This document shows, in pieces, positions 29,301 through 51,964 of a stretch of 54,063 bases of DNA; the stretch's first letter is position 1, and the number at the start of each line of letters is the position of its first letter. The notes beneath the pieces were generated by a model. The model worked only from the letters and a program-made list of their open reading frames with translations, was not told the DNA's origin and made no database searches. Made by a program: the position numbers and the translations under genes. This DNA comes from Anaerolineae bacterium (lineage in GTDB: Bacteria > Chloroflexota > Anaerolineae > Aggregatilineales > Phototrophicaceae): positions 1 through 54,063 of the forward strand of contig JAHDWN010000044.1 in the NCBI GenBank assembly GCA_023382675.1, in the 5' to 3' direction.

Positions 29301-29475
29301 ACAGACCAAGGCTTGGTGTCTGAATTTCGACCCGTGGCGGTGCGAACTCGGGGAATACATCCACCGGGATGGTGCGGATCGCAGCGATGCCAAAGATCAT
29401 CAGCACCGCACCAACAAAGACCACCAGGTATCGGAATCTCAGGCTGGTTGCAACAATCCATTGCATTTCACTCAT
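26323..29475 (-). CDS. RND-family efflux transporter (heavy-metal/CusA-like), second copy
   Basis: The 1050-residue protein has the standard RND plan: 12 membrane segments in two halves and two large extracytoplasmic loops. Membrane segment 4 carries the charged proton-relay motif [19 protein letters not shown]. The N-terminus reads RFRYLVVFVGAVLMIFGIAA, followed by VFPEFAPPRVEIQTPSLGLS, which is characteristic of the CusA/CzcA (HME) group. It overlaps the adaptor gene by 4 bases (ATGA). It exports metal ions or another solute using the proton gradient. A second, non-identical RND protein precedes it in the same operon, so the two could form a heteromeric pump as MdtBC does. No outer-membrane channel gene is present, as expected for a single-membrane cell. 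Confidence 0.9.
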   Translation of the reverse strand: MSEMQWIVATSLRFRYLVVFVGAVLMIFGIAAIRTIPVDVFPEFAPPRVEIQTPSLGLSAGEVEALVTIPMEQVFNGLPGLDIMRSKSVEQLSSILLIFDQGTDLMEARQLVQERLSLVTPTLPTWAAPPFMLPPLSSTARTIKIGISSEELSVIDLSMITYWKIRQELLRVPGVANVAIWGEQIDIPLVQVNSELLAEYGVSVDDVIQVTSDALDVGLIQYSNGSEVGTGGFLETPNQLIPIRHVASISQPSDLIHIPVNDELKDDGTALRLSDIATIERGTWPMIGDAVINDGPGLLLIVEKFPWANTVAVTHGVEAAIEDMRPGLPGIDIDTTIFRPATFIELALENLVSSLFIGAGLVVVVLLVFLWDWRIALISATIIPLTMVVTLLILSLFGTTLNVMVLAGLVIAIGAVVDDAIVDVENIVRRLRQFRQAGSKVPTVNIVLDASLEVRSAIVNASLIEMSALVPVFFLEGLSGAFFRPLAQAYVVATLVSPLIALTVTPALIMILLSAAPIRDRLSPIVPPLHRIYHALLSRSLKVPSLAYATSVVILVLGILIWPLLGQELLPSFKERDFLMHWLTKPGTSHPEMVRISTLACQELRTIPGVRNCGSHIGQALLMDEVYGIYFGENWISVDPSVDYDQTLASVQELVDGYPGLYRDVQTYLKERIREVLTGSSHPIVIRIYGEDLNVLRAKANEVEAKLAEIEGITDLHVEFLVDIPQIEIEVNLAAAERYGLSPGDVRRAAAYLIAGWEVGDIHTSNRTYDVNVWSLPENRVSMTSLYDLRIDTPSGGQVPLSEVADVRIAPAPNAINRENLARRINVEAEVVGRDLGSVVGDVKQALTQVEFPHGYHPELLGEYAEREAAQQRILVAGIVAALVIFALLRVSLGSLRLAVMSFLSLPMALVGGILAAYFASGGILSLGSLVGFLTILGVAARNGIMLISHYQHLEDFEGETFGPQLILRGSRERIAPIMMTALTAGLALVPLVIAGSIPGHEIEHPMAIVILGGLVTSTLLNLFVIPTLYLRFGRRRDHHVEVHGAPQAS

Positions 29476-32900: not shown

Positions 32901-33118
32901 AGCAGGTCCGCCTCCATGGGAACCGTGATCAGGGCTTCAACTTCTTCAGCAGACAGCCCCAGTGCTTCAGTCTGAACTTGGACGACAGGTGGGCCAAATT
33001 CGGGAAAGACAGCAACTGGCATAGCACCCAATTGCGAAATGCCGAAGATGATCAAAGCTGCCGCAAGAACAACTGCAAGAAAACGAATTTGTAGAGACTT
33101 GTTGATGATCCAACGCAT
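29972..33118 (-). CDS. RND-family efflux transporter (heavy-metal/CusA-like), first copy
   Basis: Start ATG 33118 is chosen because GAGGAGG lies 9 bases upstream; the frame is open to 33145. The 1048 residues have the RND layout with [20 protein letters not shown] near the N-terminus and the relay motif [19 protein letters not shown] in membrane segment 4. The C-terminal half has [20 protein letters not shown], where NC replaces the usual NG. It resembles the downstream RND protein over its whole length, but the two have clearly diverged, so they are old paralogues. It is first in the RND-adaptor-RND operon. A dyad (33,251-33,275) upstream could be its operator. Confidence 0.9.
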
Positions 33119-33247
33119 CGCTCCAGACCTCCTCTTTGGCTGCATTGCAAACCTGGACTCGGAACCGATCTGAGTATTTGACCGGCTTCAGCGAGATGAG
33201 AGCGTGGTGCGTGGTGTCCTATTTGGATGGTCGCGACTGGCCGACTA

Positions 33248-34249: not shown

Positions 34250-37069
34250 TCAGGTCGAAGGCATGAATGTGGCCGCCGGAATTGGTGACGCCTCCGGCGG
34301 CTCCAACGCTGGCGTATTGGTAGGATAATTCGGTCCAATGGTCGGCTGTTCCAGTGTTGTCGTCGACATCGGGATGGCCATGTCGGGCGTAGCTTCCTCC
34401 GGCGGAATCATCGTCGAAGGTGGTGAAAGAGTCTCCGTCGGCGGAACGACTGTCGCACTCTCTGTCTCCGTCACCATCAGTGGCGGCGGGGATGGCTTGC
34501 GCCCTGCTGCCTCGGTCGCCGTCGGTTCGATAGCGTCTGTTGGCCGTATGGTCGCCGTCGCACCGACAGGACTCGACGGGTCGAGCGCGAACTTGAGCAG
34601 GTCCTCCAACGAATAGGCCGCCCCCAGGCTGTTGAGCGTCTGGTTGACACGATCCCAGTCGTCGCTAAAAGTCATCAACCCAGCAGGAAATGACCCTGAC
34701 CCGTTCCAATCACCGGAAACCGGTATTCCCCAACTACCTCCATAGCTGAAGCTAATATCGGGCGACCCATAGCTGTTGCTGTTGCGCAGCAGCCACAGCC
34801 CAGTCTGGTAGGCGAACAGCCCAATCGTGTCACGCCCGTCGCCATCCCAATCCCCGGCAATTGGGAAACCCCACCAACCCCCGTAACCGCCGACGACTGC
34901 ATCGGCGCCTCCACCCGAATTGCTGTTGCGCAGATACCAATCCCCGTTCGTCGGGTTGTAGATGCCAATCGTGTCGCGACCATCACCGTTCCAGTCACCA
35001 ACCACCGGGTATCCCCATCCACCGCCATAGATGAAGCTGACGTCCGGCGCGCCATAGCTGTTGCTATTGCGTAGAAGCCACTCGCCTGTGCTCGGTACGA
35101 ACAGCCCGATGTTATCGCTACCGTTGCCATCCCAGTCGCCGCTGATGGGCAGACCCCACCAGCCGCCATAGCTGCTCACCGTGATGTCCGGCGCACCTCC
35201 ATTACTTGAATTGCGCAGATACCAGTTGCCGTTCGCTGAGTCGTAGACCCCAAGACTATCCGCGCCATCCCCATTCCAGTCACCAGCGACCGGCGCAGCC
35301 CATCCTCCACCATAATTTGCCTCATAGTCCGGTGCTCCCGGCGATGCCGAGTTGCGCAGATACCAGGCCCCGGTCGCCCGCGCGTAGATCCCAATTCCGT
35401 CGCGCATGCTGCCTGCAATGGGCGACGGTGTCGGCGGCACCGTTGGTACTGCGTCGATGATTAGCTGCGGTGGATTGGCACCTTCCCGACTAGAAAAGCG
35501 CACCTGCGTTGTGTCCGCAGATGCCAGCGCAAGATCATACTGTCCTGCAGCAGTAACCAGTCCAGTTACATCCACGGTCGTCCATGTATTGGCGGCAAAC
35601 GCGGCAGAACTCCCGAAGGAACTGCCGAGGGCTGGAGCATTTGTGAAGTTGATAGTGGATTCATCCCACCCCCCGCCGGTCACGTATACCTGGTAGCCGC
35701 CTCCAGAACTCGTTTCGGCAAACACACGCAAAGTAGCGCGGGCAATGTTGCCAGAGAGGGCAGGCACCTGAAAGCGAAGGTAGCTGCGAATGACCGGTGA
35801 GGCGTCCGTCCGCAGAGCGTCGCTAGAACCAAAATTCTCACCTGGAGTCGCTTCATGGACGTATGCATCCGCGACCGGGTTCAGAGTAACGACTTCGCCA
35901 CCAGGAGGATTTGTAGGTGCAACTGTGGGAGTTACGACCGGTGTTGGGGCATTCCCGTTGATGATGGAGAAGGAATCGTAGAACGGCTCCCCAGATCCGG
36001 TTACTTCGTACGTCATGAGGAATTGTGCGTCAATTCGATCTGGACTGACGGTGTAGACCGTTATTCCTCTGCCCACGCGGCGCGTACTGCAACTCCCGTC
36101 GCGCCAAACTGATCCGTTGCCTCCCATGGCACTCGCAAAATAATTACGTTCACTATCGTTGCAGTCAATTGACGTGAAGCCGCTCCCGCCAAATGCGCCG
36201 TTAATCAAGAATAGGGTGCCCGCGCCGCGGGAATACACGTTGTCGGCACCATCGTCGGCGACACAGCTTGCGTCAAAGACGCCGGCGTTGGCGCAGATCA
36301 ACTGCTTGCTACGCTGATAATCGTGGTCGTGGCCCTGTAAAACCAGATCTACACGCTTGGCGATCAGCAGATCCATCAGGGCTTCCCCGATTTCGCAGCT
36401 CTTGTTGCCTATCGTCAAGCAGTTCTTGTGCATGCCCACGATCACCCAGGGAATATTGCTCCCCCGCGCGGCATCGATAGTTGCCTCCAGCCAGGCATAG
36501 TGTGCATTGCCAGGTTCGTAGTCGTATTTCACACCATTTACGTCGTTCCCAGCCCCGATCATGATGAACCGTGCGTATGGATTGGGTTGGGGATAATCAG
36601 AGTAGTATTCCGCGGCGTACACGCCCGTGGAGTTCATCCGGTCGGGCAGGCAGACGGCAAAGTTGTTGATGAATCCGTCAACAAAATCGTCATCCTCATG
36701 GTTACCCACAATCAACTGAAACGGAAATGTCTCACCGATAGTCAGCCTGATATTCCTGTTCGGATCGGTACCACTACACCAGGGCGATGGTGTGACGCCG
36801 TCAGTCGGTTCGGGCCCGGAATCTGAATAGCTCAGGTCGCCAAGTGCCAGATGAAAGACTGCGCCGCTGTTGGCAATAGCCTGTAAACTGCTGCGTGTAT
36901 CCGCCTCATTGGGCGCGCCGTGATCGCCGCCAGCAGTGAAGATGAACGATTGGTTCTGCGCGACAGCGATGGAATCGAGGGATGAAGCAACAAAGTGAAG
37001 GCCGAAAACAAATATGGTCAACCAGATAGGCGTCGCCAAACGCCTCTCTTTCGCACCCAGCTCCTTCAT
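34250..37069 (-). CDS. Secreted calcineurin-like metallophosphoesterase with CBM96/DNRLRE-like domain and five repeats
   Basis: The 939-residue protein has a signal sequence near residues 14-37. Its phosphoesterase domain (about 40-365) carries AGGDHGAP, LALGDLSYSD, IVGNHEDDDF and LQGHDHDYQRS, the metal-ligand motifs of calcineurin-type enzymes. A Thr-Pro linker leads to a DNRLRE/CBM96-like beta domain (about 390-540, ending [14 protein letters not shown]). Five repeats of about 47 residues follow (about 555-795), each with WYLRNS or WLLRNS and GDWNGDG, probably an FG-GAP-like propeller. A low-complexity Pro/Thr tail ends the protein. GGGGGAG directly before the ATG supports the start. It probably hydrolyses phosphate esters at the cell surface, held by its carbohydrate-binding parts. 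Confidence 0.85.
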   Translation of the reverse strand: MKELGAKERRLATPIWLTIFVFGLHFVASSLDSIAVAQNQSFIFTAGGDHGAPNEADTRSSLQAIANSGAVFHLALGDLSYSDSGPEPTDGVTPSPWCSGTDPNRNIRLTIGETFPFQLIVGNHEDDDFVDGFINNFAVCLPDRMNSTGVYAAEYYSDYPQPNPYARFIMIGAGNDVNGVKYDYEPGNAHYAWLEATIDAARGSNIPWVIVGMHKNCLTIGNKSCEIGEALMDLLIAKRVDLVLQGHDHDYQRSKQLICANAGVFDASCVADDGADNVYSRGAGTLFLINGAFGGSGFTSIDCNDSERNYFASAMGGNGSVWRDGSCSTRRVGRGITVYTVSPDRIDAQFLMTYEVTGSGEPFYDSFSIINGNAPTPVVTPTVAPTNPPGGEVVTLNPVADAYVHEATPGENFGSSDALRTDASPVIRSYLRFQVPALSGNIARATLRVFAETSSGGGYQVYVTGGGWDESTINFTNAPALGSSFGSSAAFAANTWTTVDVTGLVTAAGQYDLALASADTTQVRFSSREGANPPQLIIDAVPTVPPTPSPIAGSMRDGIGIYARATGAWYLRNSASPGAPDYEANYGGGWAAPVAGDWNGDGADSLGVYDSANGNWYLRNSSNGGAPDITVSSYGGWWGLPISGDWDGNGSDNIGLFVPSTGEWLLRNSNSYGAPDVSFIYGGGWGYPVVGDWNGDGRDTIGIYNPTNGDWYLRNSNSGGGADAVVGGYGGWWGFPIAGDWDGDGRDTIGLFAYQTGLWLLRNSNSYGSPDISFSYGGSWGIPVSGDWNGSGSFPAGLMTFSDDWDRVNQTLNSLGAAYSLEDLLKFALDPSSPVGATATIRPTDAIEPTATEAAGRKPSPPPLMVTETESATVVPPTETLSPPSTMIPPEEATPDMAIPMSTTTLEQPTIGPNYPTNTPALEPPEASPIPAATFMPST

Positions 37070-38448
37070 GACTCCCCCTTTTGCCCGTGCGGCAACCTAA
37101 AGAAGTAGGGACTGATTGCATTTCAGGGTAGTCATGCTTTCACATGAAGTCAACTAAGTCGTCACATGAATAGGTTGGATCGGGGCGCGCGAGCCATGAC
37201 GCTGGGATGATGGTACCACTAGCACTTGGCTTGGCCAGGGAGCAACCAGCACGAGACGGCAAACGTGCTGACCGCAGCGCAGATATGGAGAATACACGTT
37301 TGAGACATCGCTTCTTGTGAGTAACAGGGGTGGTCCAGGGGAGTAGTGAGAGCGAAGTCGTGATTGTCGATCAGGAGTCCGTCTTATCCTGTGCCTGCTC
37401 AGAGCGTACAAACACAATGAGAGGTGTTTTTGAAAGGCGCATACGAATCAACGTTGTTAGGGTCTTCCAGCGCTTGCTGAAAAACCTCAAGATGGACATA
37501 CCGTCGACCTCGTGGCCCAAGCTAACAGCGATCTTCTTCTCAAGATCGGTTAGCTCATTTGATCGCTTCGTCATCGTTAACATGCACCCGCCCAGTTACG
37601 CTTTGCTTATGATTTCTCGTGTTTACAGCCATCAATCCGTCTGCTGAACTCTCGGTCTGACCATAAACACAAATACCGGTTCATAGATTTCTGCAGCAAT
37701 CAATGTTAACTTCATTATAAATACCATTTGGCAAATCGAAAACTTGAGGCGTATTCACCCAAACGAATAGATTTGCTCAATTCTAAGATTCTTTCCAGTC
37801 AGTTACATTACTCCAATCCTCTATTATACATCAGAAGATGAAGCCCTGGTTGTGAACAGGTAAAGAGGTCATTAAAGGATGACCAAATCGGCTGCATCGA
37901 GATGCCCAATACCGATCATGTTCTCCTACATCGGACAATCGCACGGCATATCCGGCGGCAGAGCGCCGCCGACAGCATATATATTTATATATTACATTAG
38001 AACTACTATACAACTAGTATATATGAGACTTTCATTGACCTAACACGCGCAGATCGACCCATCGGCATACGGAAATGAATATTATCAATTAACACAGCAT
38101 TGAGTTACATTATTGCAAGATATGAACGGCCACACGCTAGCTTTAATCAACCCCGCGATTACCACCCAATCTGGCAATATTTGTGGTCCTCATAAATAAA
38201 TGGAAAATTGTACTAAGGTCGTAATGTTCAGAAATTGTCTCGTACATATTAATCCATTAGGCCCTATTGCGCGGTTATGCTCTACGGCTCTATAACCAGG
38301 CTTTACAGTTTTTAGGCAATTGTTAGGGGATTGTGAAAACCTTTTAACAGAACTTAAATATTCCTAAAAATTCTGTTAGGTAGCTCACGTCGCTGGAAGC
38401 CGCAGTTAGCAGTACGAAACGTATCAGGAATGCATGGGGAGCCTCACT
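37070..38448. other. 1.4 kb AT-rich intergenic region upstream of the glycosyltransferase
   Basis: No convincing gene is seen. A 70-codon minus-strand frame (37,371-37,583) lacks a good ribosome-binding site and any recognisable family. The right half is much richer in A/T than its neighbours, with TATATATTTATATATTAC near 37,977-37,994. TTTTTAGG-type repeats lie at 38,309-38,380, close to the glycosyltransferase start. It probably holds promoters for both diverging genes. Its base composition is unlike the flanking genes. Confidence 0.6.
38309..38380 (+). promoter_or_regulatory. Direct repeats TTTTTAGG / TTGTTAGG (11-base period) upstream of the glycosyltransferase
   Basis: TTTTTAGGCAA (38,309-38,319) is followed at once by TTGTTAGGGGA (38,320-38,330), and CTGTTAGG lies at 38,373-38,380. 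The first pair is conserved in the inverted duplicate at 34,027-34,045, although the surrounding sequence has diverged. The period suits an OmpR-type regulator. Confidence 0.5.
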
Positions 38449-40737
38449 ATGTCCTACCAGAAGGTGGGCGATGGGAGGGCACCTGACGTTCGGGCCAACC
38501 GACTTTCTACACAGCAGACCGCACTCACACTGTCCATTGTTGTACCCACCAAAAATGAAGCCCAGAATGTCTTGCCGCTTCTAAAACGCCTGGAGAGCGC
38601 TGTCGTTTCCGAAGACATCGCCGCCAAAGACGTGGAAGTCATCTTCGTCGACGATAGCGATGATGATACACCGGCTAAAATCGAAGAAGCCGGCCGTCAA
38701 TCCTCTTTTGCCATCAGTTCAATAGTGCGACCACGGGAACGACGAAACGGCCTAGGGATGGCCGTCGTTGAAGGCATGCAAATTGCGCGTGGAACATGGG
38801 TCGTCGTTATGGATGGCGATTTGCAGCATCCACCAGAATTAATACCTCAGCTATTGCAGAAAGCCCGCTCTACTGAAGCGGATCTTGTCGCTGGCAGCCG
38901 TCTGGCTGAAGGTGGCAGCGCCGACTCGCTTGGCTGGCGGCGTAAACTGCTGTCGCAGGCACTGGCACAGTTTTCGCGTTTCATCTTCTCGAAGAACCTG
39001 CGGTCAATCACTGATCCTTTGACTGGTTTCTTCCTCTTTCGTCGCTCGGCCGTCAATCCGGATTATCTGCGTCCAAAAGGGTTCAAAATCCTTCTGGAAA
39101 TCCTCGTCCGCTGCCCAAAACTCAAGGTGGCGGAAGTTCCATTTGAGTTCGGGCAACGCCTAAGCGGTAAAAGCAAAGCCAGCCCACGCGAAATGATCGC
39201 GCTGTTTGAACAGATGGCTGGGCTGCGCTTTGCCCCACACGAGCATTTGTTCCGTTTCCTCATGGTCGGACTGTCCGGCCTGGTTGTAAACACTTTGCTG
39301 ATGTTTGTGCTCGTCGATTTCCTCGGGTTCCATTACGTTCTTGGTGCGATCGCGGCTACACAAGGCTCAACCCTGTGGAATTTCGAGTGGACGGAGCGAT
39401 GGGTATTTGGGAACCGGGAACTCCCCGGCCGGCGTTTGTGGGTACGCATGCTGAGTTTCTTCGTGGTCAACAACTCGATGCTGCTCCTGCGCGGTCCGAT
39501 GCTCATCTTCTTTGTCGCATCGCTTGGCATGCACCATCTGCTCGGTAACTTCGCGTCGTTGGTGGTAATGACCGCGCTGCGTTTCCTGATTGCCGACCGG
39601 TTCATCTGGGGTTCAGGCAACAAAAGCAGACAGGACATCTACTATTACAACATCCACGACATCATTCGAGTGCGTTCTATGCGGCGACTGCCGGAACTGC
39701 GCTACTTCTCAGTCAGCGAAGTCATTGCAGAACCTGACATCGACGTAATCGTTACGACGAATCTCGACGGCTACCTGAGCGACAAGTCAATCACCTATGA
39801 AGAAATGTTGGGTTCGCTGGGATTCAGCATTGTCATCAACCAAAAAGAGACGCGCACAGATGTGATTGCGTCGCCACTGATTGGCATGTCGCCGCACGTT
39901 CTTTATACCAACGTGGTTGAGCCATTGCTCCGGTGGACCTTCGTCCGTAAGGGCTACGCGCTAATGCACGGAGCCTGCCTGGCGATTGATGGTAAAGCGT
40001 TGTTCGTCACAGCGCGCACCGACACGGGCAAGACCACGACGATTCTGCAGACGATGCGGAATAACCTGGACAAAGTCACGTTTCTATCGGACGACATGAC
40101 GATTGTCAGCCGCGATGGTCGGGTGATGAACTATCCGAAGCCGCTGACGATCAGCCTGCACACACTTCGGGCTGTCACGGAGGCACCGCTGACGATCTCA
40201 CAGCGCTTGTTCTTGCAGGTTCAAAGCCGTCTGCATTCGCGGGGAGGGCGCAAGGCTGGATTGTGGTTGAGCCACAACTCAGTTCCGGCTGCGACGCTCA
40301 ATGCCATCGTTCAGAAGTTGATCCCGCCACCCAAATACATGATCGATGAGCTGATCCCGAGAGCACGTCACACAAGCGAAGCCCAACTGAGTCACGTCGT
40401 TCTGATTGAGCGTGGGCCGGATTTCGAGGCAACGCTAGACGAAATCGAGAAAGCTAGGGTGCTGGTCGAGAACGCCGAAGACGCATACGGATTCCCGCCC
40501 TATCCTACACTGGCGCATGCGCTTTGCCATTGGAACGGCATCGATCTGCATGTATCTGAAGCCGAAATTGTGACAGCCGCGACCCAGAACCTTCCGGCGA
40601 TCCACCTCAGAAGCCCGCGCTTTGACTGGTATCGCCGGCTGCCTCACTTCTTGCAGGAGCCGGTGATAGAGCTTCCGACCAAGAGTGAGGTCCTGGATTG
40701 GCCTGCACCTGGATTACGACCATCCGGCTCGGCATGA
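38449..40737 (+). CDS. GT2 glycosyltransferase - GtrA membrane domain - HprK-like P-loop domain fusion
   Basis: From ATG 38449 (GGGGAG 7 bases upstream; supported by the duplicated copy) the product has 762 residues. Residues 25-245 form a dolichyl/undecaprenyl-phosphate sugar transferase: LSIVVPTKNEAQNVLPLLKR, VEVIFVDDSDDDTP, MDGDLQHPPELIPQLL and DPLTGFFLFRRSA. Residues 265-390 form a GtrA-like domain with four membrane segments (RFLMVGLSGLVVNTLLMFVL at its start). The last 350 residues contain a P-loop related to HPr kinase (LFVTARTDTGKTTTI, Lys528) and FLSDDMTIVSRDG as a Walker-B-like site. Transfer of a sugar to a lipid carrier and its flipping would feed the GT39 enzyme encoded next. The kinase-like part is unexpected. 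Confidence 0.85.
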   Translation: MSYQKVGDGRAPDVRANRLSTQQTALTLSIVVPTKNEAQNVLPLLKRLESAVVSEDIAAKDVEVIFVDDSDDDTPAKIEEAGRQSSFAISSIVRPRERRNGLGMAVVEGMQIARGTWVVVMDGDLQHPPELIPQLLQKARSTEADLVAGSRLAEGGSADSLGWRRKLLSQALAQFSRFIFSKNLRSITDPLTGFFLFRRSAVNPDYLRPKGFKILLEILVRCPKLKVAEVPFEFGQRLSGKSKASPREMIALFEQMAGLRFAPHEHLFRFLMVGLSGLVVNTLLMFVLVDFLGFHYVLGAIAATQGSTLWNFEWTERWVFGNRELPGRRLWVRMLSFFVVNNSMLLLRGPMLIFFVASLGMHHLLGNFASLVVMTALRFLIADRFIWGSGNKSRQDIYYYNIHDIIRVRSMRRLPELRYFSVSEVIAEPDIDVIVTTNLDGYLSDKSITYEEMLGSLGFSIVINQKETRTDVIASPLIGMSPHVLYTNVVEPLLRWTFVRKGYALMHGACLAIDGKALFVTARTDTGKTTTILQTMRNNLDKVTFLSDDMTIVSRDGRVMNYPKPLTISLHTLRAVTEAPLTISQRLFLQVQSRLHSRGGRKAGLWLSHNSVPAATLNAIVQKLIPPPKYMIDELIPRARHTSEAQLSHVVLIERGPDFEATLDEIEKARVLVENAEDAYGFPPYPTLAHALCHWNGIDLHVSEAEIVTAATQNLPAIHLRSPRFDWYRRLPHFLQEPVIELPTKSEVLDWPAPGLRPSGSA

Positions 40738-40753
40738 AGCGACGAAGTGCAGC

Positions 40754-40794
40754 GTCACAGAGTGAATGTTGTTTGGTGACGTTCGCTCTGTGAC
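40754..40794 (+). terminator. 13 bp hairpin between the two glycosyltransferase genes
   Basis: GTCACAGAGTGAA (40,754-40,766) pairs with TTCGCTCTGTGAC (40,782-40,794) with a single U-G wobble and a 15-base loop. No T-run follows directly. It may terminate or attenuate transcription into the next gene. Confidence 0.55.
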
Positions 40795-40854
40795 TCTGTG
40801 GCGCCTATTCCCTGAAATCCGACGCCAGCACAGAAGAGGTCTACCCAAAGCTAG

Positions 40855-42441
40855 ATGAGTTCTGAACCTGCAGCCATAACCATTTACGACACGAAGACCG
40901 CGCGCGGTCGCTCAACCGCCAGATGGGCAGGATTTGCGACTGTTTTGGCGCGAATTGGCGCCATCGTAGCTGTGCTGGCGATCGCTGCGGTGATGCGTGT
41001 CCTATTCCTGAACGAGCTCGGATACAACAGCGATGAAGCTGTATATGCTGGGCAGGGAGCCGCCATGGCTCAGGTTCCCGTCCTCAAAGATATCTTCCCC
41101 GTTTTCCGTGCGCATCCATTACTGTTTCAGTTTTTGCTTGCGCTCTCCTTTTCGGCTGGAGCCTACGATTGGCTCGGCCGCCTAGTGTCAGTTATCGTCG
41201 GAGTGGCAACCGTCTACGTGGTCTTCATTGCAGGTAAACGACTGTATGGACGACGCGCAGGCCTGATTGCTGCACTAATACTCGCGCTGATGCCATATCA
41301 CGTCATCGTCACACGCCAGGTTCTGCTCGATGGCCCAATGGTCTTCTGTGCGACGCTGACGCTACTTATGATGATACGGTTCGCAGAGACTGAGCGTGCT
41401 ATTTGGCTCATCAGCGCTGGCGTAGGCATGGGGCTCTCGTTTCTTGCCAAAGAGACAAGCATCTTGCTTGTAGGGGCAATCTATGCCTTCCTGGCCCTAT
41501 CCCCAAAGATCCGCGTGCGCATCATTGATATCGTCCTCTCGCTCGTACTGATGGCAGCGACGATGGCCCCATTTCCGCTATCGGTATCACTTGCAGGTGG
41601 CGGGGGCGGCAGCAAGACCCAATCGTATCTTGTCTGGCAGTTGTTTCGACGCCCCAATCATACGTTGGATTTCTATCCGACCGTGGTGCCGCCTGCAGTG
41701 GGCATCCTCGTCATCGTCGCCGCGGTGATTGGTCTGTGGGCGCTCCGTAGTGAAAATGGGTGGCGCGAGCGGCTGCTGGTCTTATGGATTCTCGTTCCGT
41801 TTGCGTTCTTCCAGCTCTGGCCCACCAAAGGCTTCCAATATCTACTTCCCACCGCCCCGGCAATTGCCCTCCTCGCCGCTCGCACGCTGACGAAGTGGCC
41901 CCTGAAGCCTGTGCGCTTCCACCGGTGGCAGATACCAGCGGCGTCCGTATCTTTCACATTCTTCGTGATGATACTCGTCACGCTTTTCACCAGGAGTTGG
42001 GATTCGATCTCTCCATTTCAGTCAGATCAATTCCTTGCAGGTTCTGGCGGTCTACCTGGCGGTCGCGAAACCGGTCTGTGGATCAGGGATCATGTGCCTG
42101 AAGGGGCAACCTTCATGACCATTGGTCCATCCATGGCAAACGTGATCAAATTCTACGGACACCGTCAGGCGTACGGATTATCCGTCAGTCCGAATCCTTT
42201 GCATCGCAACCCGTCGTACGAACCTATCTCAAATCCGGATTTCAAGATACGCACCGGTGACCTGCAATACCTTGTATGGGACTCGTTTTCCGCTGCCAGG
42301 TCGTCTTTCTTCTCGGACAAGCTGTTGGAATATGTCCGCCGGTACAACGGTCGTGCGGTGCATACGGCAACAGTCACCGTGAATGCCTCCGGCGAATCTG
42401 TAGAAAGGCCGGTCATCATCGTTTACGAGGTTCACCCATGA
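40855..42441 (+). CDS. GT39/ArnT-like membrane glycosyltransferase
   Basis: The 528-residue polytopic protein belongs to the PMT/ArnT (GT-C) superfamily, which moves a sugar from a polyprenyl phosphate carrier to a lipid or protein on the outer membrane face. The first extracytoplasmic loop carries the acidic catalytic motif YNSDEAVYAGQGAAM (about residues 60-74). It is followed by AHPLLFQFLLALSF, the segment YGRRAGLIAALILALMPYHV and the stretch GLSFLAKETSILLVGAIYAF, all typical of the family. A soluble C-terminal domain covers about residues 390-528. The polyprenyl-phosphate sugar made by the preceding GT2 protein is its likely donor. The stop overlaps the start of the phosphoesterase gene (ATGA). 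Confidence 0.88.
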   Translation: MSSEPAAITIYDTKTARGRSTARWAGFATVLARIGAIVAVLAIAAVMRVLFLNELGYNSDEAVYAGQGAAMAQVPVLKDIFPVFRAHPLLFQFLLALSFSAGAYDWLGRLVSVIVGVATVYVVFIAGKRLYGRRAGLIAALILALMPYHVIVTRQVLLDGPMVFCATLTLLMMIRFAETERAIWLISAGVGMGLSFLAKETSILLVGAIYAFLALSPKIRVRIIDIVLSLVLMAATMAPFPLSVSLAGGGGGSKTQSYLVWQLFRRPNHTLDFYPTVVPPAVGILVIVAAVIGLWALRSENGWRERLLVLWILVPFAFFQLWPTKGFQYLLPTAPAIALLAARTLTKWPLKPVRFHRWQIPAASVSFTFFVMILVTLFTRSWDSISPFQSDQFLAGSGGLPGGRETGLWIRDHVPEGATFMTIGPSMANVIKFYGHRQAYGLSVSPNPLHRNPSYEPISNPDFKIRTGDLQYLVWDSFSAARSSFFSDKLLEYVRRYNGRAVHTATVTVNASGESVERPVIIVYEVHP

Positions 42442-43934
42442 TCCGCGTAAGCCTACATGTCTTCAGCGTGAACCGGCGCAACCAGTGGATGATCTGGACG
42501 GGCGTCTCGTTGCTGGCATGTCTGTGCCTGGTCTCACGGTCGGTGTCCGCGCAGGCAGTTACCAGCTCTGCAGAGCCGCCCGAGCCAAATACCCCCATCG
42601 AGCATTTCATCTTCCTGATGCAGGAGAATCATTCATTCGACAATTACTTTGGGACATACCCGGGTGCCGACGGCATTCCGCCTGACACATGTATTCCTTA
42701 TGATCCATCGATAACTACTCTGGCGCGCATCCTTGTGCCAATGGCATTACGCGGGACGGAAGTGTTCCCTGTAAACCATCTTGACCTCACAACCACTGAT
42801 TGCGTTGAGCCATTTCATTTTAGTGAAGGCGACGTGCAGCCGGATGACCCCGATCACTCGCGGGAAACGTTTCAGCTTCAATACAACGACGGCGCGATGA
42901 ACGGTTTTGTCTATGCACTGGAGCAGCGCAACCAGGATGGACGATTGGCGATGGCGTACTACAACGACCAGGATCTGCCCTACTACTGGAATATCGCGGA
43001 CGAATATGTGCTGTTCGATAATTTCTTTACCTCAGCGGGTGACGGAAGCTTTATCAATCATCTCTATTGGATCGCGGGCACACACGATGAACCTCCAGAA
43101 GGCCAGAGTTTGCAGGAGTATCTCGCCGGTGTCACCACGATCTTCGATGTGCTCGAAGCAGAGGGTATATCCTGGAAATTCTATATCCAGAATTATGAAC
43201 CGGACTTAACCTATCGCACCCGCCATCTCTATCCTGGCGATCGACAGTCTCAGGTGACGTGGGTTCCGTTACTCAGCTTCGATCGGTTTATTGACGATCC
43301 AAACTTGAATTCGAAGATGGTGAACCTTGACGAATACTACGAGGACCTCAATCGCAACACACTGCCAAACGTCGCCTTCATGGTTCCCTCAGGCCCAAGC
43401 GAGCATCCGCCGTCCAGCCTCATGTCCGGGCAGCGCTTCGTTCGCATTCTGATCCAATCCCTCATGCAGAGCGATTATTGGGACAAATCGGCATTCATCT
43501 GGACTTATGACGATTGGGGCGGCTGGTACGACCATGTTCCCCCGCCTCAGGTCGATCAGCACGGATTCGGGCCACGTGCCCCCGCTCTGCTCGTCAGCGC
43601 ATACGCCAGGCGCGGTCTTATCGACAGCACGCTTCTGGATTTTACTTCCGGCTTGAAGTTCATTCAGGAGAATTGGAATCTTCCTTCACTGGCAGAGCGT
43701 GATGCGAATGCCAACGGTCTCATGAGCGCGTTTGACTTCACTAGCCCACCACGCCCTGCAAGAATCATCTCGATGGAACGTGAAAGCGGTGCGGCACGCC
43801 CTGAGCCGAAGAGAGAGGTCATTTACATGGCCTATGGTGCGGCGCTCGTGCTGGCTTCGGTGGTTATCACAACGGCAGTGGTGACGACCAGAACTTCAAC
43901 GCGCGCCGGAAACAGACATGGAGAGCAAACGTGA
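42438..43934 (+). CDS. Secreted, membrane-anchored phosphoesterase (phospholipase C/acid phosphatase family)
   Basis: From ATG 42438 the product has 498 residues; an earlier in-frame start lies inside the previous gene. After an N-terminal signal (MIWTGVSLLACLCLVSRSVS) comes a phosphoesterase domain (PF04185-like). It has IEHFIFLMQENHSFDNYFGT, a metal site in the phospholipase C/AcpA family, then DNFFTSAGDGSFINHLYWIA, IWTYDDWGGWYDHVPPPQVD and PALLVSAYARRG. A C-terminal membrane segment (YGAALVLASVVITTAVVT) with a basic tail anchors it. It would cleave phosphate esters or phosphodiesters of lipids or surface polymers. It overlaps the next gene by 4 bases, so it is co-translated with the Ig-integrase protein. 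Confidence 0.85.
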   Translation: MIRVSLHVFSVNRRNQWMIWTGVSLLACLCLVSRSVSAQAVTSSAEPPEPNTPIEHFIFLMQENHSFDNYFGTYPGADGIPPDTCIPYDPSITTLARILVPMALRGTEVFPVNHLDLTTTDCVEPFHFSEGDVQPDDPDHSRETFQLQYNDGAMNGFVYALEQRNQDGRLAMAYYNDQDLPYYWNIADEYVLFDNFFTSAGDGSFINHLYWIAGTHDEPPEGQSLQEYLAGVTTIFDVLEAEGISWKFYIQNYEPDLTYRTRHLYPGDRQSQVTWVPLLSFDRFIDDPNLNSKMVNLDEYYEDLNRNTLPNVAFMVPSGPSEHPPSSLMSGQRFVRILIQSLMQSDYWDKSAFIWTYDDWGGWYDHVPPPQVDQHGFGPRAPALLVSAYARRGLIDSTLLDFTSGLKFIQENWNLPSLAERDANANGLMSAFDFTSPPRPARIISMERESGAARPEPKREVIYMAYGAALVLASVVITTAVVTTRTSTRAGNRHGEQT

Positions 43935-46327
43935 CCATGCGCAACGCGAACCATGCGAAAGCATTTGTCATCATTCTGGTCGTGATCTGTATGGCGATCA
44001 TGATCACCCCACTCCATGCTCAAGGCGATGAGCAACTCGACAGCGTTCTCACGATGGATCCGTTAGCGCCACAACCAGTTGGAGCGCGAACAGAGATCAC
44101 GGCTCGGCTGTCCAACGTTGAAGGCCGTGGCAACCCCAACAAAGTGTTGATCTTCTACCTCAATGGTGAGTCCTTGCGCCGAATTCGCACCGATGAAAAT
44201 GGCGTTGCGACGGTTCTACTGCCAGAACTGCGCATTGGCATGTATACCGTCCAGGTTGTTTTTGAAGGCACCCAGGCCTATAGAGCAGCGATTGTGTCGA
44301 TGGATTTCGAGGTGCGCGGAGCCACACTCAGCATCGTTTCTATCCCGCCGCTGCCAAATATCGAGTTTTCGTTGGATGGAGAGCTGTTTGCGACCGGAGA
44401 AGACGGTATCGCGCGGATTCAAGTAGCCGACATGGGCACGTACTCGCTTGAAGTGCTGCTCCCGCCAGATACGGAGGTCGTGGAGAATACGCGCGCAACG
44501 TTTGACCGTTGGAAAGACGGTTTCCAACCTCAGCGTTCGGTGACTATTCACGGGGATATTTCACTGGAAGCAGGCTTTGCGATCAGTCATCCAGTGAGTC
44601 AGACCTTCATCGATTTGCAGGGACAACCGGTCGAACAAGAGCGAATTGAGGCAATCTCGCTCAAAGGCACCGATGGATCGCGCTTTACGTTTCCTGATGG
44701 CGAAGAGCGATGGCTGCGGGCAGGGCGGGTCGCACGCCGATCATTTGGATTGGAATTGGCTCCTATTCAGTATTCGATCGAGAGTGTCATGATCACGGGG
44801 TCGAACGTGGTCAATCAGTATCAACAGAGATTCTTTGTTGAACCGAGGGAAGTGTGGCCGATTCAACTCTTGCTCTATCATGCGGTCCTTCGAGCCAAGG
44901 ATGCGCTTTTCGGTTTCTCTTTGGGCACTGCTCTCCGACTGGAGTACCCAAATGGGTATGTTGAAGAGCTACCCTTTAACGACAACAATGAAGTAGTCAC
45001 AGGCAAATTGGCCCGCGGCGTTTATCGAGTCCAGGTTCTAGGTGTCCCAGGAATGGCCCCAGTAACGCCCATGGCCTTGTCGCGCGATCAGGATGTCGAC
45101 CTCAAGGTTCTAAGCGCACTTGACATCGGACTAGGCGCGGTTCTTGGAGTCGTTGGTGCGCTTGGCTTGCTCCTCTACGGACGTCCGCACCTTCCACGTG
45201 TCGCCCTGCAAACATCCGTTGACATTCTGCTCCTGCGTTTTTTGCGGAAGCCAACTGCTGTACCCGAGACCGCGGCGAACCCGGCTCCCCGCCCAATGCC
45301 TGCCCGGGCAGCGTCTGTCCTCATTCCACAGCCAGTACTTGCCTTGGATAGCGCGCCCAGCGCAGGAGTATTGTACGGGAAGGAAGAAAGCAGCCCAGCA
45401 GTATCGAACGGGGCGCACGACGACCTCGTCTCCGCGATTATCGACGTGTCAGTCAAGAACCCCTGGCTTGGACGCAGACAGGTGGCCGAAGCGTTGCAGA
45501 AGGAAGATATTTCGATCTCACCGTCCCGCGTTCGCGCCGTTCGCCTGCGCTACAAACTGGAGACATTTGATCAGCGGGTTGTCTGGCTCAAGCGCTACAT
45601 CATTGCCAATCGAAAGAGGCATCTAACCAGCGCCCAACATGCGGCGCTTGACCGGGTGCATGAACAGCACAAATTGGAAGCAGAGACATTCGCACCCTAC
45701 CCTGGGTACCTGGGCACACAAGATAGTTTCTATGTTGGTCACCTGGAAGGTCTCGGTCACGTCTACCAGCAGACCTTCATTGATGTGCACAGCGGTCTTG
45801 CTTTCGTGCGCGTATACAATGCGCGCAATGCACAGACCGCCATCGACATGCTTGAGCATCATGTTCTGCCTTGGTTCCGCAGGCGACGAATGCCCATACG
45901 GTGCATCCTGACAGATCGGGGTAAAGAATACACCGCGCTTCAAAAGGATGAGGCCTACACTGACTTCCTGGCGACTTGGGGCATCAGTCACAGCAAAACG
46001 GTAGCCAAAAGTGCTCAGCATAATCGCATTTGTTCACGGTTCCATCGCGAAATGCGAAAACGCTTTTACACGGTCATTCTCGAAGATAATCAGTTCCAAT
46101 CGTTGGGCGCTTTGCAGCAGGAGATCGATGTATGGATAGATGGGTGCAACTCCGAATTCGTTAGCAAGGAGAGAAATGGCCTTACACCAGTACAGGCATT
46201 CCTTGCGGGAGAAACGCCGCTTCTCGGCAACCGGCGTAAAGCGGCGTCTCAGCAAGTCGGCAATGGGACGCATGCCCAGCAACCGGATGAGATTGTATCG
46301 ACGACTTTTGCGGAAGTGTCCAAGTGA
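43931..46327 (+). CDS. Membrane-anchored Ig-like protein fused to a cytoplasmic integrase-type (IS481/IS3) domain lacking the catalytic Glu
   Basis: The 798-residue frame is continuous. Residues 1-35 form a signal sequence (AFVIILVVICMAIMITPLHA). Residues 40-390 are beta-rich, with Ig-like features (VLIFYLNGESLRRIRTDENG). A membrane segment (about 397-416, IGLGAVLGVVGALGLLLYG) is followed by basic RPHLPR, placing the rest in the cytoplasm. After a Pro/Ala linker comes an HTH (WLGRRQVAEALQKEDISISP, near 508) and an integrase fold with D598 (GTQDSFYVGHLEG) and D662 (ILTDRGKEY). The third acid, expected 40 residues later as in ICERFH, is S702 (ICSRFH). Cut-and-paste activity is therefore unlikely. 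No IS ends or target duplications were seen. It is probably a domesticated, membrane-tethered DNA-binding protein; its role is unknown. Confidence 0.85.
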   Translation: MTMRNANHAKAFVIILVVICMAIMITPLHAQGDEQLDSVLTMDPLAPQPVGARTEITARLSNVEGRGNPNKVLIFYLNGESLRRIRTDENGVATVLLPELRIGMYTVQVVFEGTQAYRAAIVSMDFEVRGATLSIVSIPPLPNIEFSLDGELFATGEDGIARIQVADMGTYSLEVLLPPDTEVVENTRATFDRWKDGFQPQRSVTIHGDISLEAGFAISHPVSQTFIDLQGQPVEQERIEAISLKGTDGSRFTFPDGEERWLRAGRVARRSFGLELAPIQYSIESVMITGSNVVNQYQQRFFVEPREVWPIQLLLYHAVLRAKDALFGFSLGTALRLEYPNGYVEELPFNDNNEVVTGKLARGVYRVQVLGVPGMAPVTPMALSRDQDVDLKVLSALDIGLGAVLGVVGALGLLLYGRPHLPRVALQTSVDILLLRFLRKPTAVPETAANPAPRPMPARAASVLIPQPVLALDSAPSAGVLYGKEESSPAVSNGAHDDLVSAIIDVSVKNPWLGRRQVAEALQKEDISISPSRVRAVRLRYKLETFDQRVVWLKRYIIANRKRHLTSAQHAALDRVHEQHKLEAETFAPYPGYLGTQDSFYVGHLEGLGHVYQQTFIDVHSGLAFVRVYNARNAQTAIDMLEHHVLPWFRRRRMPIRCILTDRGKEYTALQKDEAYTDFLATWGISHSKTVAKSAQHNRICSRFHREMRKRFYTVILEDNQFQSLGALQQEIDVWIDGCNSEFVSKERNGLTPVQAFLAGETPLLGNRRKAASQQVGNGTHAQQPDEIVSTTFAEVSK

Positions 46328-46407
46328 ACAGCGCACATTCTCCTCGATCGGTAACACGTCTTCAAGCGCAATCACGTTCCTGTTTGTTCAGGCACAAGTC
46401 TCTGGGT

Positions 46408-47541
46408 ATGTCAGACGCTTTGCCCCGCACTTGTAAGCGGATTACCATCAAACGAACCATCCTCCTGCTTGGCCTTTTCATTGGCCTCTTTTTTGAACGT
46501 CCAGCAGTCGTGTTGGGGCAAGTCGATTCGCGAGATCCCGTTCCCTTTATGGCGTACTACTACATCTGGTATTCACCCGCATCCTGGGATCGAGCGAAGA
46601 CCGATTATCCAATCCTGGGCCGTTACAGCAGTGACGACCGCGCAGTGATGGAACAGCATGTACGCTGGGCGCAGGAAGCCGGTATCGATGGCTTCATCGT
46701 GAGTTGGAAAGCGACGCCGCAGCTCAACAGGCGTCTCCAGTTGTTGATAGACGTTGCCACAGAGGCAGATTTCTCGCTCTGGATCATCTATCAGGGACTC
46801 GATTTCGACCGCAATCCGCTGACTATTGACCAGATCGATCACGATTTGGCTTTCTTTGTATCGAACTATGCCCATAATCCCGTTTTTCACATGTATAACC
46901 AGCCGGTTGTGATCTGGTCTGGCACGTGGGAATTCACAGCCGCCGAGATTAGCACTATTAGCAGCGGCTACCGCCGCGAACTCCTGATATTGGCATCCGA
47001 ACGCAGCGTCGAAGGCTACCAGCGACTTGCACACGCCGTTGACGGCAACGCTTATTACTGGTCATCCGTAGACCCATTCAACACACCAAACTACGAAACG
47101 AAGCTGATTGAGATGGGTGAAGCAGTCCATCAACGCGACGGGCTCTGGGTCGCTCCAGCAGCGCCGGGCTTTGATGCGCGTTTGGTCGGCGGTACCCGCG
47201 TCATTTCGCGCAACGGCGGCGATACATTCAGGCAGGAGTTGAACGCCGCTGTCCGATCAAGTCCCGATGCGATTGGCATCATTAGCTGGAATGAATTTAG
47301 CGAAAACAGTCACATTGAGCCTAGCGTTAATTACGGAACAGAAGCACTCAATATGCTGATAGGGGGGGAGCTTAATCTGGCGACGCCAATAATGGATTTC
47401 GACTCCAGCGCGCCGGGCACAACTGATTTCAACGACTCCTATAACATTATTGTCTTTACAGGTGTGTTTCTGTTCATGGGCGTAATGATTGCGGCCACGA
47501 TCGTGCGCCGCGCCAAACACAGCGCGGTATCAGAAGGGTAG
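46408..47541 (+). CDS. Membrane-anchored GH99-like glycoside hydrolase
   Basis: Translation probably starts at ATG 46408, giving 377 residues with a signal sequence (ITIKRTILLLGLFIGLFFER); a GTG at 46324 overlapping the previous gene is less likely. The domain begins VPFMAYYYIWYSPASWDRAK and has AQEAGIDGFIVSWKATPQLN. The ExxE pair of GH99-type enzymes lies in SWNEFSENSHIEP (E296 and E299), where the other GH99-like protein has NEWHEGTQIEP. A C-terminal membrane segment (YNIIVFTGVFLFMGVMIAAT) and basic tail anchor it with the catalytic part outside. It may trim or remodel the glycan made by the neighbouring transferases. Substrate unknown. Confidence 0.75.
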   Translation: MSDALPRTCKRITIKRTILLLGLFIGLFFERPAVVLGQVDSRDPVPFMAYYYIWYSPASWDRAKTDYPILGRYSSDDRAVMEQHVRWAQEAGIDGFIVSWKATPQLNRRLQLLIDVATEADFSLWIIYQGLDFDRNPLTIDQIDHDLAFFVSNYAHNPVFHMYNQPVVIWSGTWEFTAAEISTISSGYRRELLILASERSVEGYQRLAHAVDGNAYYWSSVDPFNTPNYETKLIEMGEAVHQRDGLWVAPAAPGFDARLVGGTRVISRNGGDTFRQELNAAVRSSPDAIGIISWNEFSENSHIEPSVNYGTEALNMLIGGELNLATPIMDFDSSAPGTTDFNDSYNIIVFTGVFLFMGVMIAATIVRRAKHSAVSEG

Positions 47542-48524: not shown

Positions 48525-51500
48525 ATGAGCAAAAGTACACGGGCAGCCAAATTCATCTTCAGCGGGATCTCATTGCTCCTTGCGCTGCTTGCATTTGCAC
48601 CTGTCTTTGGTCAACCCACGCTGAGCTTTGACGTCACGCGCGATGGGAGCACCAGCACCTACCACGCCATCTCGCAGACCACCTCCTCGTCCTACACCGG
48701 GACGCTCAAATCTGTGGTGGAGAGCGCTGTCAGCGAACTTGTCTCGTTTGGCGGAGGCAACATCTTCTTCGCGGCCGGCGATTTCGACCTGGGATCGGAC
48801 TTCTTCAAGCTCTACGACCCGACCGACATTGTGTTCGCCGGTCAAGGGATCGACGTCACGATCATCCGCAACTTCTCGAGTGCGTCAGCGGATACCGAGC
48901 CGTTCAATTGCTCCAATTGCGACAGGCTCACGATCCGAGACATGACGATCTCTGCTGGCGGCCCGGTGCGTACCACCAGCGATGCAATCGACCTGGACGA
49001 TGGCGATGATAACCTGATCGAGCGGGTCAAAATTACGAATTCGCGTGGTCGCGGCATCGTCTTCGATGGCAAAGGACCGGGTGGACACGCAGATGGAAAC
49101 ACCGTGCGCGACTGCATCATCACCGGCCCGATGGATCAGGATGGAATCCAGATGTTGGCCTCCAGCAACAACCGCATCGAAAACTGTCATATCTCCGACG
49201 TGGGTCGGCACGGCATCTATGCCAACAAATCCAGTTCCAGCGCTGCCCAACCCAACAAACCATCAGACGATAATGTTATTAGTGGCAACCTGATAGAACG
49301 GGCTGGCAGCAGTGGCATCTCGGCTAACAGCGGCAACCGTAATCTCATCACGGGCAATACCGTTCTGAGCAGCGCAGTCAATGGTATCTTGATCACCACC
49401 AGCTCATCGCTCCCCTGCAATGACAACGTCGTGGAATTTAACACAGCGACCGCGAATCAGACCTATGGACTCAACATCACAAGCGCGTCCTGCAACCGCA
49501 CCGTGGTGACGGATAACAACTTTGCGGACAACGGTACCGGCGCCATTCGCGATATGGGGACGAATACAATCTACAGCCAGTCCGGTACGCCGACGAATAC
49601 GCCCGTAATACCGCCCACAGCGACGGGTATTCCACCGACGAGCACGCCGGTGCCGCCGACCAACACGCCCGTCAGCGGAGGAACGCTGACACTAACCGCG
49701 ACGGCGGACACTTACGTCAACAGTTCGAGTACGGGCAGTAACTATGGCACCAGCTCATCGCTCCGGACAGACAACTCGCCGACGATCAATACCTACCTGC
49801 GTTTCCAGGTGCCCAACCTCTCCGGCAATATTCTCGGTGCTACGCTGCGGGTCTATGCCAACTCAGCATCGAGCATGGGTTACGAGGTGCGCGGCACGAC
49901 CGGCGCCTGGGACGAGGTGACTATCACCTATAGCAATGCGCCCGCCTTCGGCGGCAGTGTCGGCAGCTCGGGCGCAATCACCAGCAATAGCTGGACCCAG
50001 GTGGATGTGACCGCGCTCGTAACAGGCAGTGGTCAGGTCAACTTCGTGATGACCTCGACCAGCAACACAGCGACGAGTTTCTCGAGCCGAGAAGGCGCCA
50101 ATCCACCAGAGTTGATTGTCGAGGTGATTGACGGCCCACTGCCGACGAATACGCCGCTGCCAGCGACGAACACACCGCTGCCCCCTACCGATACGCCGCT
50201 CCCACAAACCCACACACCACTGCCACCGACGATCACGCCATTACCACCAACCGATACACCCATACCACCGACGAGCACACCGATACCGGCGACCAACACG
50301 CCCGTCAGCGGTGGGACACTCACACTGACCGCAATGGCAGACAGTTACGTCAACTCCTCGAGCTCCGGCAGCAATTATGGGAGCAGCACGGCGATCCGCA
50401 CGGACAACTCTCCGGTGATCAACAGCTACCTGCGCTTTGAGGTACCCGCACTTTCTGGCAGCATCACTAGCGCCACGCTGAGGGTCTATGCCAACTCATC
50501 ATCCAGCGTCGGTTACGCGGTGCACGGGACGACCGGCGCCTGGGACGAAGTGACTATCACCTATAGCAATGCGCCAGCCTTCGGCACTAGTGTCGGCAGT
50601 TCGGGAGCTATCACCGCCAAGACCTGGACGCAGGTGGACGTGACGGCGCTGTTGATCGGTGGTGGTCAGGTCAATTTCGTGATGACCTCGACCAGCAATA
50701 CAGCGACGAGTTTCTCCAGTCGCGAAGGTGCCAATCCGCCCGAGCTGGTTATCAGCGTTGCTGGTTCCCCATCGGCGAATGTCGTGAGCGATCCGGTCAC
50801 GGGGGCCGTGCCACTACCCGACACACTGGTGCCAGCGACGGTCACGCCAGAGTCACCGACACTCACTCCACTGCCGCCAACCAACACACCAGAACCACCG
50901 ACGGTTACACCTGTGCCAGCGATCGACACTCCGCTGCCACCAACTAAGACTCCGGAGCCACCGACAGTCACGCCGGAACCGGCGACGATCACACCTGTGC
51001 CAGCGACCGGGACGCCGCTGCCACCAACCAGCACTCCGGTGCCACCGACGGTCACGCCGGAATCGGCGACGATCACACCTGTGCCAGCGACCGAGACACC
51101 GCTGCCACCGACCAGTACCCCGGTGCCGACGCTGCCGCCGTTCGCCACACCAACACCGGTTCCACCCACTGACACACCTGTGGCGACGCTGCCGCCGTTC
51201 CCGACGCCAACGCCTGTGCCGTCAACAGACACGCCGACACCGCCGACTGTCACGGCGATCCCACCAACGAACACCCCACTCCCGACTGGGCCGACCTTCT
51301 ACCGGGCGATCAATCTCAATGGCAATCCGGTCGTGGTTGATGGCAACAGCTGGGACGGTAGTGGTGCCGCGAATTTCACCACCAACGGTATGCCAGCGTG
51401 CAATCCGTGGATGCCAACAGTGCCATCGACCGACGCGGCACGCACGACGATGATCCAGTGTTACGTCCAGCATTGGGCGCACAACATGGTCATGACAAAT

Positions 51501-51746
51501 GTGCCCGAGGGTACGTATCAGGTGTACCTGTATGTCTGGCTCGACTGGGCGGACCCGAATCCGCAGCCATTCAATGTCCAGATCGAAGGGCAGACGGTCG
51601 CTACAGGCATCCTGGTGAGCACGTCAGGTGAATGGCAGCGGATAGGACCGTACACAGCAAGCATCGCCGATGGCAGCATAGACGTCACCACAAGCGAGGG
51701 ATTGCCCAATGTGTCGGGTCTTGAAGTCTGGAGGGCGGGAAGTTAG
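48525..51746 (+). CDS. Secreted beta-helix protein with two CBM96/DNRLRE domains, Thr-Pro linkers and a malectin-like domain
   Basis: The 1073-residue protein has a signal peptide ([20 protein letters not shown]). A right-handed parallel beta-helix (about 60-350) follows, made of N-x-I/V ladders such as [20 protein letters not shown] and [20 protein letters not shown]. Two DNRLRE/CBM96-like domains (about 385-530 and 600-745) each end [12 protein letters not shown]. They are separated and followed by Thr-Pro-rich linkers with TNTPLPP-like units. The last 150 residues look like a malectin-type sugar-binding domain ([20 protein letters not shown]). Such beta-helices often bind or cleave acidic polysaccharides, but no catalytic site was identified. 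It is probably a surface carbohydrate-binding protein. A tandem paralogue follows. Confidence 0.88.
50818..51290 (+). repeat. Thr-Pro linker repeats in the first beta-helix gene
   Basis: About 470 bases encode imperfect 6-7-residue units of the PPTNTP/PATITP type. Shorter runs of the same kind lie at 49,590-49,675 and 50,130-50,310. They act as extended linkers between surface domains. Confidence 0.85.
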
Positions 51747-51869: not shown

Positions 51870-51964
51870 GTCGGATCAAATTGGCTCGGCGGGAACAAGG
51901 TTGCACTCTTGCAAGGAACGATATCGCGATGAGCGGGTCCCGTTATTTCAGGAGGCAGACAGTT
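51870..51964 (+). promoter_or_regulatory. Leader conserved between the two beta-helix genes (copy 2)
   Basis: Carries the same ordered landmarks as the leader at 48,430 (ATCAAA, TCGCGA, GCGGG, TCAGGAG, GTTATG), with the intervening bases diverged. Confidence 0.5.

Follow-up and report, generated by a model that had tools for sequence, protein, structure and literature searches.

In regulators of the ToxR/CadC type a transmembrane (TM) helix and a DNA-binding domain are combined in one chain, with a topology that is the reverse of that of a protein whose DNA-binding part is C-terminal, as in the case considered here. Transmembrane transcription regulators as a group are widespread and more than 100 DNA-binding domains are found among them (PMC10269533); the words transposase and integrase are absent from its main text. 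Capture of transposase domains, so that part of a host protein or factor comes from a transposase, is described for eukaryotic genes in two other papers (PMC12062965, PMC10027918). A bacterial membrane-bound regulator derived from a transposase was not found in the open-licence literature among the matches listed, in most cases a small part of all hits. Here we describe a gene that may encode one. It occupies positions 43931–46327 of the forward strand (to which all coordinates refer unless a minus is given) in contig JAHDWN010000044.1 of an Anaerolineae bacterium (GCA_023382675.1; Phototrophicaceae, Aggregatilineales), the whole stretch of 54,063 nucleotides being hereafter called the window. 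In its single frame an immunoglobulin (Ig)-like membrane protein is joined to a piece of an IS481-type transposase, the catalytic Glu of this piece is lost, and the tail thus formed is unlike the tails read in homologues. To the reading that the transposase was captured, is catalytically dead and now serves as a DNA-binding module tethered to the membrane we give a probability of about 0.4.

With ToxR/CadC-type regulators the protein shares a TM helix (aa 396–416) and a DNA-binding domain in one chain, here by prediction, and differs from them in that a transposase helix-turn-helix (HTH), namely the second HTH of the IS481 family (HTH2), would be the DNA-binding part and is placed C-terminally; the winged helix Trans_reg_C is absent from the seven Pfam families listed for the protein up to E 1. 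With IS481 transposases it has in common HTH2, the RNase-H core, the spacing and both catalytic Asp, at 34–37% identity to fetched plasmid members and to the best relatives of the order, but it carries Ser for the catalytic Glu, has no first HTH, is joined behind a membrane protein and shows no insertion sequence (IS) ends. With Ig-TM proteins encoded in a surface-glycan gene cluster of Thermomicrobiaceae and others it shares ectodomain, TM helix and gene order at up to 42% identity, whereas their read tails are a second TM segment with LGFP-like repeats, a zinc-ribbon-like part, or short. (Thermomicrobiaceae belong to Chloroflexota in GTDB and to Thermomicrobiota at NCBI.) From the eukaryotic captures the present case differs in concerning a bacterial membrane protein and a different transposase family.

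The frame comprises 798 codons without a stop, so that the uninterrupted joining of signal peptide, Ig-like part, TM segment and integrase-type tail, proposed in the initial annotation, holds. Its GTG start at 43931 is preceded, 5 nt upstream, by a Shine-Dalgarno-like GGAGAG (ATG at 43937 is an alternative start) and overlaps the stop of the upstream phosphoesterase gene, to which the frame reads as coupled. At the other end the following GH99 frame may begin either with GTG at 46324, overlapping the stop of our gene, or with ATG at 46408, 84 nt further, and tight packing on this side is likely, not proven. Thus, the claim that both ends are packed into a surface-glycan gene set stands for the start and is only likely for the stop. 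A frameshift remnant or a pair of separate genes was rejected, the frame having no stop, and a by-eye search for an internal start of the tail gave no clear ribosome-binding site. The GC content of third codon positions (GC3) is similar in the tail (0.595) and in the N-terminal part (0.570), and GC along the gene makes no step except for the richer linker (0.60–0.61).

The tail is IS481-derived by homology, HTH2 and core being significant in profile, alignment and fold. The NCBIfam model of IS481 transposases, NF033577, matches aa 490–757 with E 7.7e-38 and 130.6 bits, under its cut-off of 224; Pfam rve at aa 598–689 scores 31.6 bits in the protein scan, just under the cut-off of 32.6, and 35.9 bits, over it, at the same place in the genome-wide search. 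HTH2 (45395–45586, aa 489–552) is outlined by NF033577, by the alignment and by helices 32–44, 50–58 and 66–75 of the tail model, and the integrase/RNase-H-like core with the C-terminal part (45695–46201, aa 589–757) by rve, NF033577 and structural matches. The NF033577 match covers the profile (284 positions) only from position 54 onwards and the first IS481 HTH has no counterpart in the alignment, so that the HTH part is not complete, contrary to the earlier description.

Reading of the codons agreed with what had been said of the catalytic residues. The first two acids are kept: D598 (GAT, 45722–45724), with Asp in 49 of the 49 relatives having a letter in this column, and D662 (GAT, 45914–45916), with Asp in 49 of 51 and G and H in the other two. 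The third position, 40 residues after D662, is occupied by S702 (TCA, 46034–46036), while Glu is present in all 49 relatives with a letter, two rows being gapped. The relatives for these columns were 51 of 95 matching frames, kept after removal of near-duplicates. TCA is two substitutions away from GAA and three from GAG. Conserved Pro695, Thr697 and Gly699 near S702 are also missing in the window protein, together with several C-terminal residues. Without the third acid and its surroundings, the tail is not expected to perform DDE (Asp-Asp-Glu) chemistry; going by what is established for DDE enzymes, Ser at 702 should not support it. E707, five positions further along, stands where relatives have a conserved Thr; it was considered as an alternative third acid and judged from the alignment to be an unlikely one.

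Conservation along the tail was compared with 45 relatives, six of the 51 (L035, L036, L037, L039, L199, L202) being dropped as fragments or distant; six sequences that had been tried (L157, L169, L184, L186, L195, L198) were left out of a later set, L195 for a stop. Of the columns conserved at the level of at least 90%, the window protein retains 5 of 6 in HTH2 and 20 of 26 in the core between the two Asp; the figures are 4 of 7 for the linker, 4 of 8 for the stretch from the second Asp to the Glu helix, 5 of 14 for that helix and 7 of 13 beyond it. Lowering the level to at least 80% gives 28 of 42 for the core and 7 of 17 for the Glu helix. Retention in the Glu helix and in the core differed with Fisher p 0.017, for groups chosen after seeing the data. 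Losses are uneven, being concentrated in the catalytic Glu helix and the C-terminus, with the core and HTH2 better kept.

An AlphaFold model of the tail, built with 32 sequences, has a mean pLDDT (AlphaFold's per-residue confidence score) of 71.4 and contains the HTH helices and an RNase-H-like core; in blocks of 10 residues over HTH and core pLDDT is mostly 80–93, with dips to 52–74. Compared with IstA by VIA-align, the predicted tail gave Z 17.6–17.9 over 224–225 residues with rmsd 5.8–8.7, and the 50 rows listed had Z 15.5–18.8, mostly from retroviral integrases, with TnsB-type transposases among them. By sequence the PDB gave marginal integrase matches only, with a best E of 0.021. The shared fold of the model speaks for ancestry and not for function.

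The part in front of the tail would be a typical surface protein. Two strong hydropathy segments are present in the chain, at about aa 9–30 and 393–417. The former belongs to a predicted signal peptide (43931–44020, aa 1–30), also seen as helix 5–24 of the model and as hydrophobic N-termini of close homologues, with cleavage presumably after LHA. Next comes the putative extracytoplasmic all-beta ectodomain (44021–45115, aa 31–395), 25–42% identical to homologues, with a first domain of Big_3_5 likeness (Pfam, aa 49–121, E 6.7e-6, 27 bits, under the cut-off of 35.5); Foldseek returned multi-Ig-like chains with low TM-scores (query-normalised value, TMq, up to 0.21) and no named function. The single TM helix (45116–45178, aa 396–416) is predicted from hydropathy and the AlphaFold model and is aligned in homologues, the close ones having GRPxL after it. 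It is followed by a Pro-rich linker (45179–45394, aa 417–488), assigned from composition and low pLDDT and taken as cytoplasmic, in which aa 417–490 include 12 Pro, 8 Lys/Arg and 5 Asp/Glu and which beyond its first residues has no counterpart in homologues. The model of this N-terminal part (7 sequences) has a mean pLDDT of 80.7, with 76–95 in 10-residue blocks over aa 41–410, and shows the ectodomain strands and the helix 396–416. Hydropathy, charge and the model are thus in line with the earlier proposal of a signal peptide, an Ig-like surface part, one TM segment and a tail on the inner side, and the tail would accordingly lie in the cytoplasm.

In the own family the window is the only match to the N-terminal part in 98 genomes; in the order there are 3 of 154 (the window, one contig of genome G579 and a weak match confined to an Ig-sized stretch), and in the class 9 of 396, namely the window and eight weak ones. 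A draw of 400 genomes of the phylum gave 32 matching some part of the whole protein, including long N-terminal matches in other families; at most two candidates were scored per genome in this search, so that a fusion could be missed. In the order of genome G429 the whole protein was matched in some part in 11 of 61 genomes (E down to 2.6e-92, up to 42% identity) and in its class the N-terminal part in 15 of 158. In plasmids the N-terminal part had no match at E 1e-5. Contig scans based on short patterns gave nothing for the whole protein and six records for a close N-terminal alignment. The closest copy of the cluster found in the same order lies on contig G579:C39 (L104, 3627 bases), where PMT_2 is 64–65% identical and the contig ends inside the Ig-TM gene.

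Tails were read in 19 homologues, 14 from cluster loci to which L067, itself such a locus, and L031, L208, L210 and L216 were added. In L055–L063 the tail is a second TM segment with LGFP-like repeats; in L065 (5515–7500, minus strand, genome G159) it is Pro/Ala-rich with a zinc-ribbon-like motif at the end; in L208 a second hydrophobic segment is followed by a low-complexity end; and in L031, L064, L066, L067, L068, L069, L210 and L216 it is short. The LGFP and zinc-ribbon matches are under Pfam cut-offs. None of the 19 tails contains an integrase, and the tail as a query matched nothing in the 15 cluster loci (E 1e-5) or in L208, L210 and L216 (E 1); the 19 do not include matches such as G203 and G334, the partial second copies in G375, G429, G534 and G535, or G579, where the contig ends. 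Homologues in which the integrase is a simple recent insertion with intact DDE residues, which the initial annotation had named as its counter-evidence, were therefore not encountered among these 19. Neither was a second example of the Ig-TM-integrase architecture found among the matches listed. In the NF033577 search over the 154 genomes of the order, a search that may have overlooked shorter or weaker fusions, the open frame of the window (840) was the longest among the matches listed, and the next three long places (reported as 693, 550 and 506, with integrase frames read as 293, 550 and 506 aa) had no Ig-like or signal-peptide part by eye. Since the 19 read homologues carry other tails, the tail site varies, and the gene is a normal one apart from an integrase tail specific to this lineage; comparison of the sequences suggests that it was added or put in place of another tail at the inner end in one lineage.

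That the gene belongs to a surface-glycan cluster, as proposed, is supported by Pfam and synteny. The window carries the full set over 38434–47541: a GT2 glycosyltransferase with a GtrA-like domain (38434–40737), a PMT_2-type membrane glycosyltransferase (40855–42441), a PF04185 phosphoesterase (42276–43934 as the longest frame, the true start being probably downstream; Pfam E 1.4e-70), the Ig-TM gene, and a GH99-like glycoside hydrolase with a C-terminal hydrophobic segment (46324–47541). The five-gene cluster recurs in several families of the phylum (the window and L055–L069). The order PMT_2-phosphoesterase-Ig-TM-GH99 is found in 12 of the 15 fetched loci: 11 show all four matches, and L067 joined them once its Ig-TM frame had been read. 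Ig-TM and GH99 lie about 4 kb apart in L069, the cluster of L068 is cut by the contig end, and in L062 and L063 GT2 and a PMT_2-like gene are present with no phosphoesterase or GH99 match. Because of this shared order in 12 of 15 loci the Ig-TM gene can be regarded as a regular member of an old cluster, and its sporadic presence in the order of the window suggests that the cluster was likely transferred horizontally. A foreign origin of the contig itself was considered and rejected: nine slices of the window are at tetranucleotide distances of 0.151–0.212 from the own genome, compared with a mean of 0.167 (sd 0.081) for 35 own slices. In the 1.36 kb before the cluster there is a pair of 21-nt direct repeats, 81% alike (37796–37816 and 38098–38118), which may be due to chance. 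Three large proteins with CBM96 modules flank the cluster (34250–37069, minus; 48525–51746 and 51881–54061, plus), one with a metallophosphoesterase and two with beta-helices. Farther away are a second, stronger GH99 match (13304–14929, minus, E 8.6e-60) and two neighbouring AcrB-type RND transporter genes (26323–29475 and 29972–33145, minus).

As to the donor, the best identity of the tail over most of its length is 39% in relatives and 38% in plasmids, with 42% over parts only. NF033577 matches are common, being registered in 114 of the 154 genomes of the order (21 over cut-off) and at 10 places of the own genome. The tail itself finds in the own genome only a self match at E 0.001, and tblastn against the own rve places (C18, C82 and the start of C44) and 20 own slices gave none at E 1. 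An IS3/IS481-like transposase piece, under the IS481 and IS3 cut-offs, lies near the contig end (721–1452, minus). No inverted repeat of at least 14 nt brackets the tail within 44900–46700, although shorter or diverged ends could be missed; the earlier remark that no IS ends are visible is thus upheld. In a tree of 47 rows including the window the tail forms a long separate branch of 1.02 amino acid substitutions per site, with no close relative among the 46 others; the window branch has no support value and the midpoint root is set by one very long outlier (L037), which makes the deep placement weak. Simulated neutral drift of 270 tail codons left a stop-free frame with a probability of 0.06 at 0.22 and of 0.0005 at 0.55 substitutions per site. 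Since a stop-free frame is that improbable under neutral drift, most of the tail branch was under constraint.

A DNA-binding module at the membrane is rated highest among the explanations because the tail retains an HTH and the fold but has lost catalysis, and because the cluster around the gene is intact; the frame of the gene is unbroken and GH99 still follows it. Several observations weigh against this reading. Residues 664–672, after D662, and 690–695, before S702, are poorly modelled (tail residues 199–201, 203–207 and 225–230); at the 80% level HTH2 retains just 7 of 14 columns, the same share as the C-terminus (7 of 14); the net charge of the HTH2 region, +2, is low in comparison with the 45 relatives (−1 to +10); the tail has only one of the two IS481 HTHs; no DNA target site was identified; and decayed IS481 copies exist elsewhere, 2 of the 51 relatives being without the second Asp. 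The central weakness of domestication is that the fusion is in one searched genome only and that constraint after the fusion is not separable from constraint before it. The main rival is an inert fusion, in which a chance event put a transposase gene onto the end of the Ig-TM gene, the catalytic end decays, the tail is idle and the outer part alone matters. We consider it a serious, if tentative, possibility, close behind the DNA-binding module: the fusion is a singleton, with no integrase in the 19 read tails and no second case among the matches listed, homologues manage without such a tail, and the Glu helix, the C-terminus and the first HTH are already lost. Idleness is at odds with a tail free of stops and frameshifts on a long branch, with the want of a near donor and with a core better kept than the catalytic end, but each of these objections is weakened by the fact that the branch may predate the fusion.

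A tail serving protein contacts would also dispense with DNA. The RNase-H fold and C-terminal helices could bring copies of the surface protein together or offer a docking site to a cytoplasmic partner; integrase cores are generally known to dimerise, and such a role fits the variable tails of homologues with their zinc-ribbon-like motif or LGFP-like repeats. We hold it to be unlikely, as 5 of the 6 HTH2 columns conserved at 90% are retained, though this argument is tempered by the poorer score of HTH2 at 80%. Much less probable still is an artefact of assembly or binning, that is a chimeric join or a foreign contig. The genome is an assembly of 110 contigs, the N-terminal part was met in one of 98 family genomes, and the only other good match in the order is on the 3.6 kb G579 contig, which stops within the gene. 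Against it, the tetranucleotides of the window slices fit the own genome, GC3 is alike on both sides of the junction, GC makes no step outside the linker, a GH99 orthologue follows the gene, and a patchy gene set is what horizontal transfer would leave. As to a recent insertion of an active IS481 element read through in frame, IS481/IS3-type matches are common in the order and number 10 in the own genome, yet there are no bracketing repeats of 14 nt or more, no first HTH, no catalytic Glu and no near copy in the own genome; such an insertion, rejected on these grounds, is already largely refuted and scarcely credible.

If the tail is a DNA-binding module, a widely conserved Ig membrane protein of a surface-glycan cluster would have gained an IS481-type piece, consisting of HTH2 and the RNase-H core, as its inner tail. 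The outer Ig domains might hold or sense an envelope glycan, and the inner tail might bind DNA from the membrane, perhaps at the promoter of its own cluster. The TM helix and the fold of the tail are predicted by the models, and the cytoplasmic side, DNA binding, regulation and the ligand are what we infer. The fullest form of this proposal, a one-component signalling protein that arose by transposase capture, with an Ig receptor for envelope glycan and a dead IS481 integrase as output that binds DNA and controls its own cluster, is rather doubtful at present.

Should the tail bind DNA, a membrane-bound regulator would have arisen from a transposase in a bacterium, through a single exchange of the tail on a conserved surface protein, a route from transposase to regulator that is better known from eukaryotic gene fusions. 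Even without DNA binding, the inner end of a conserved cluster protein appears as a variable, modular site, and the case points to a defined gene cluster.

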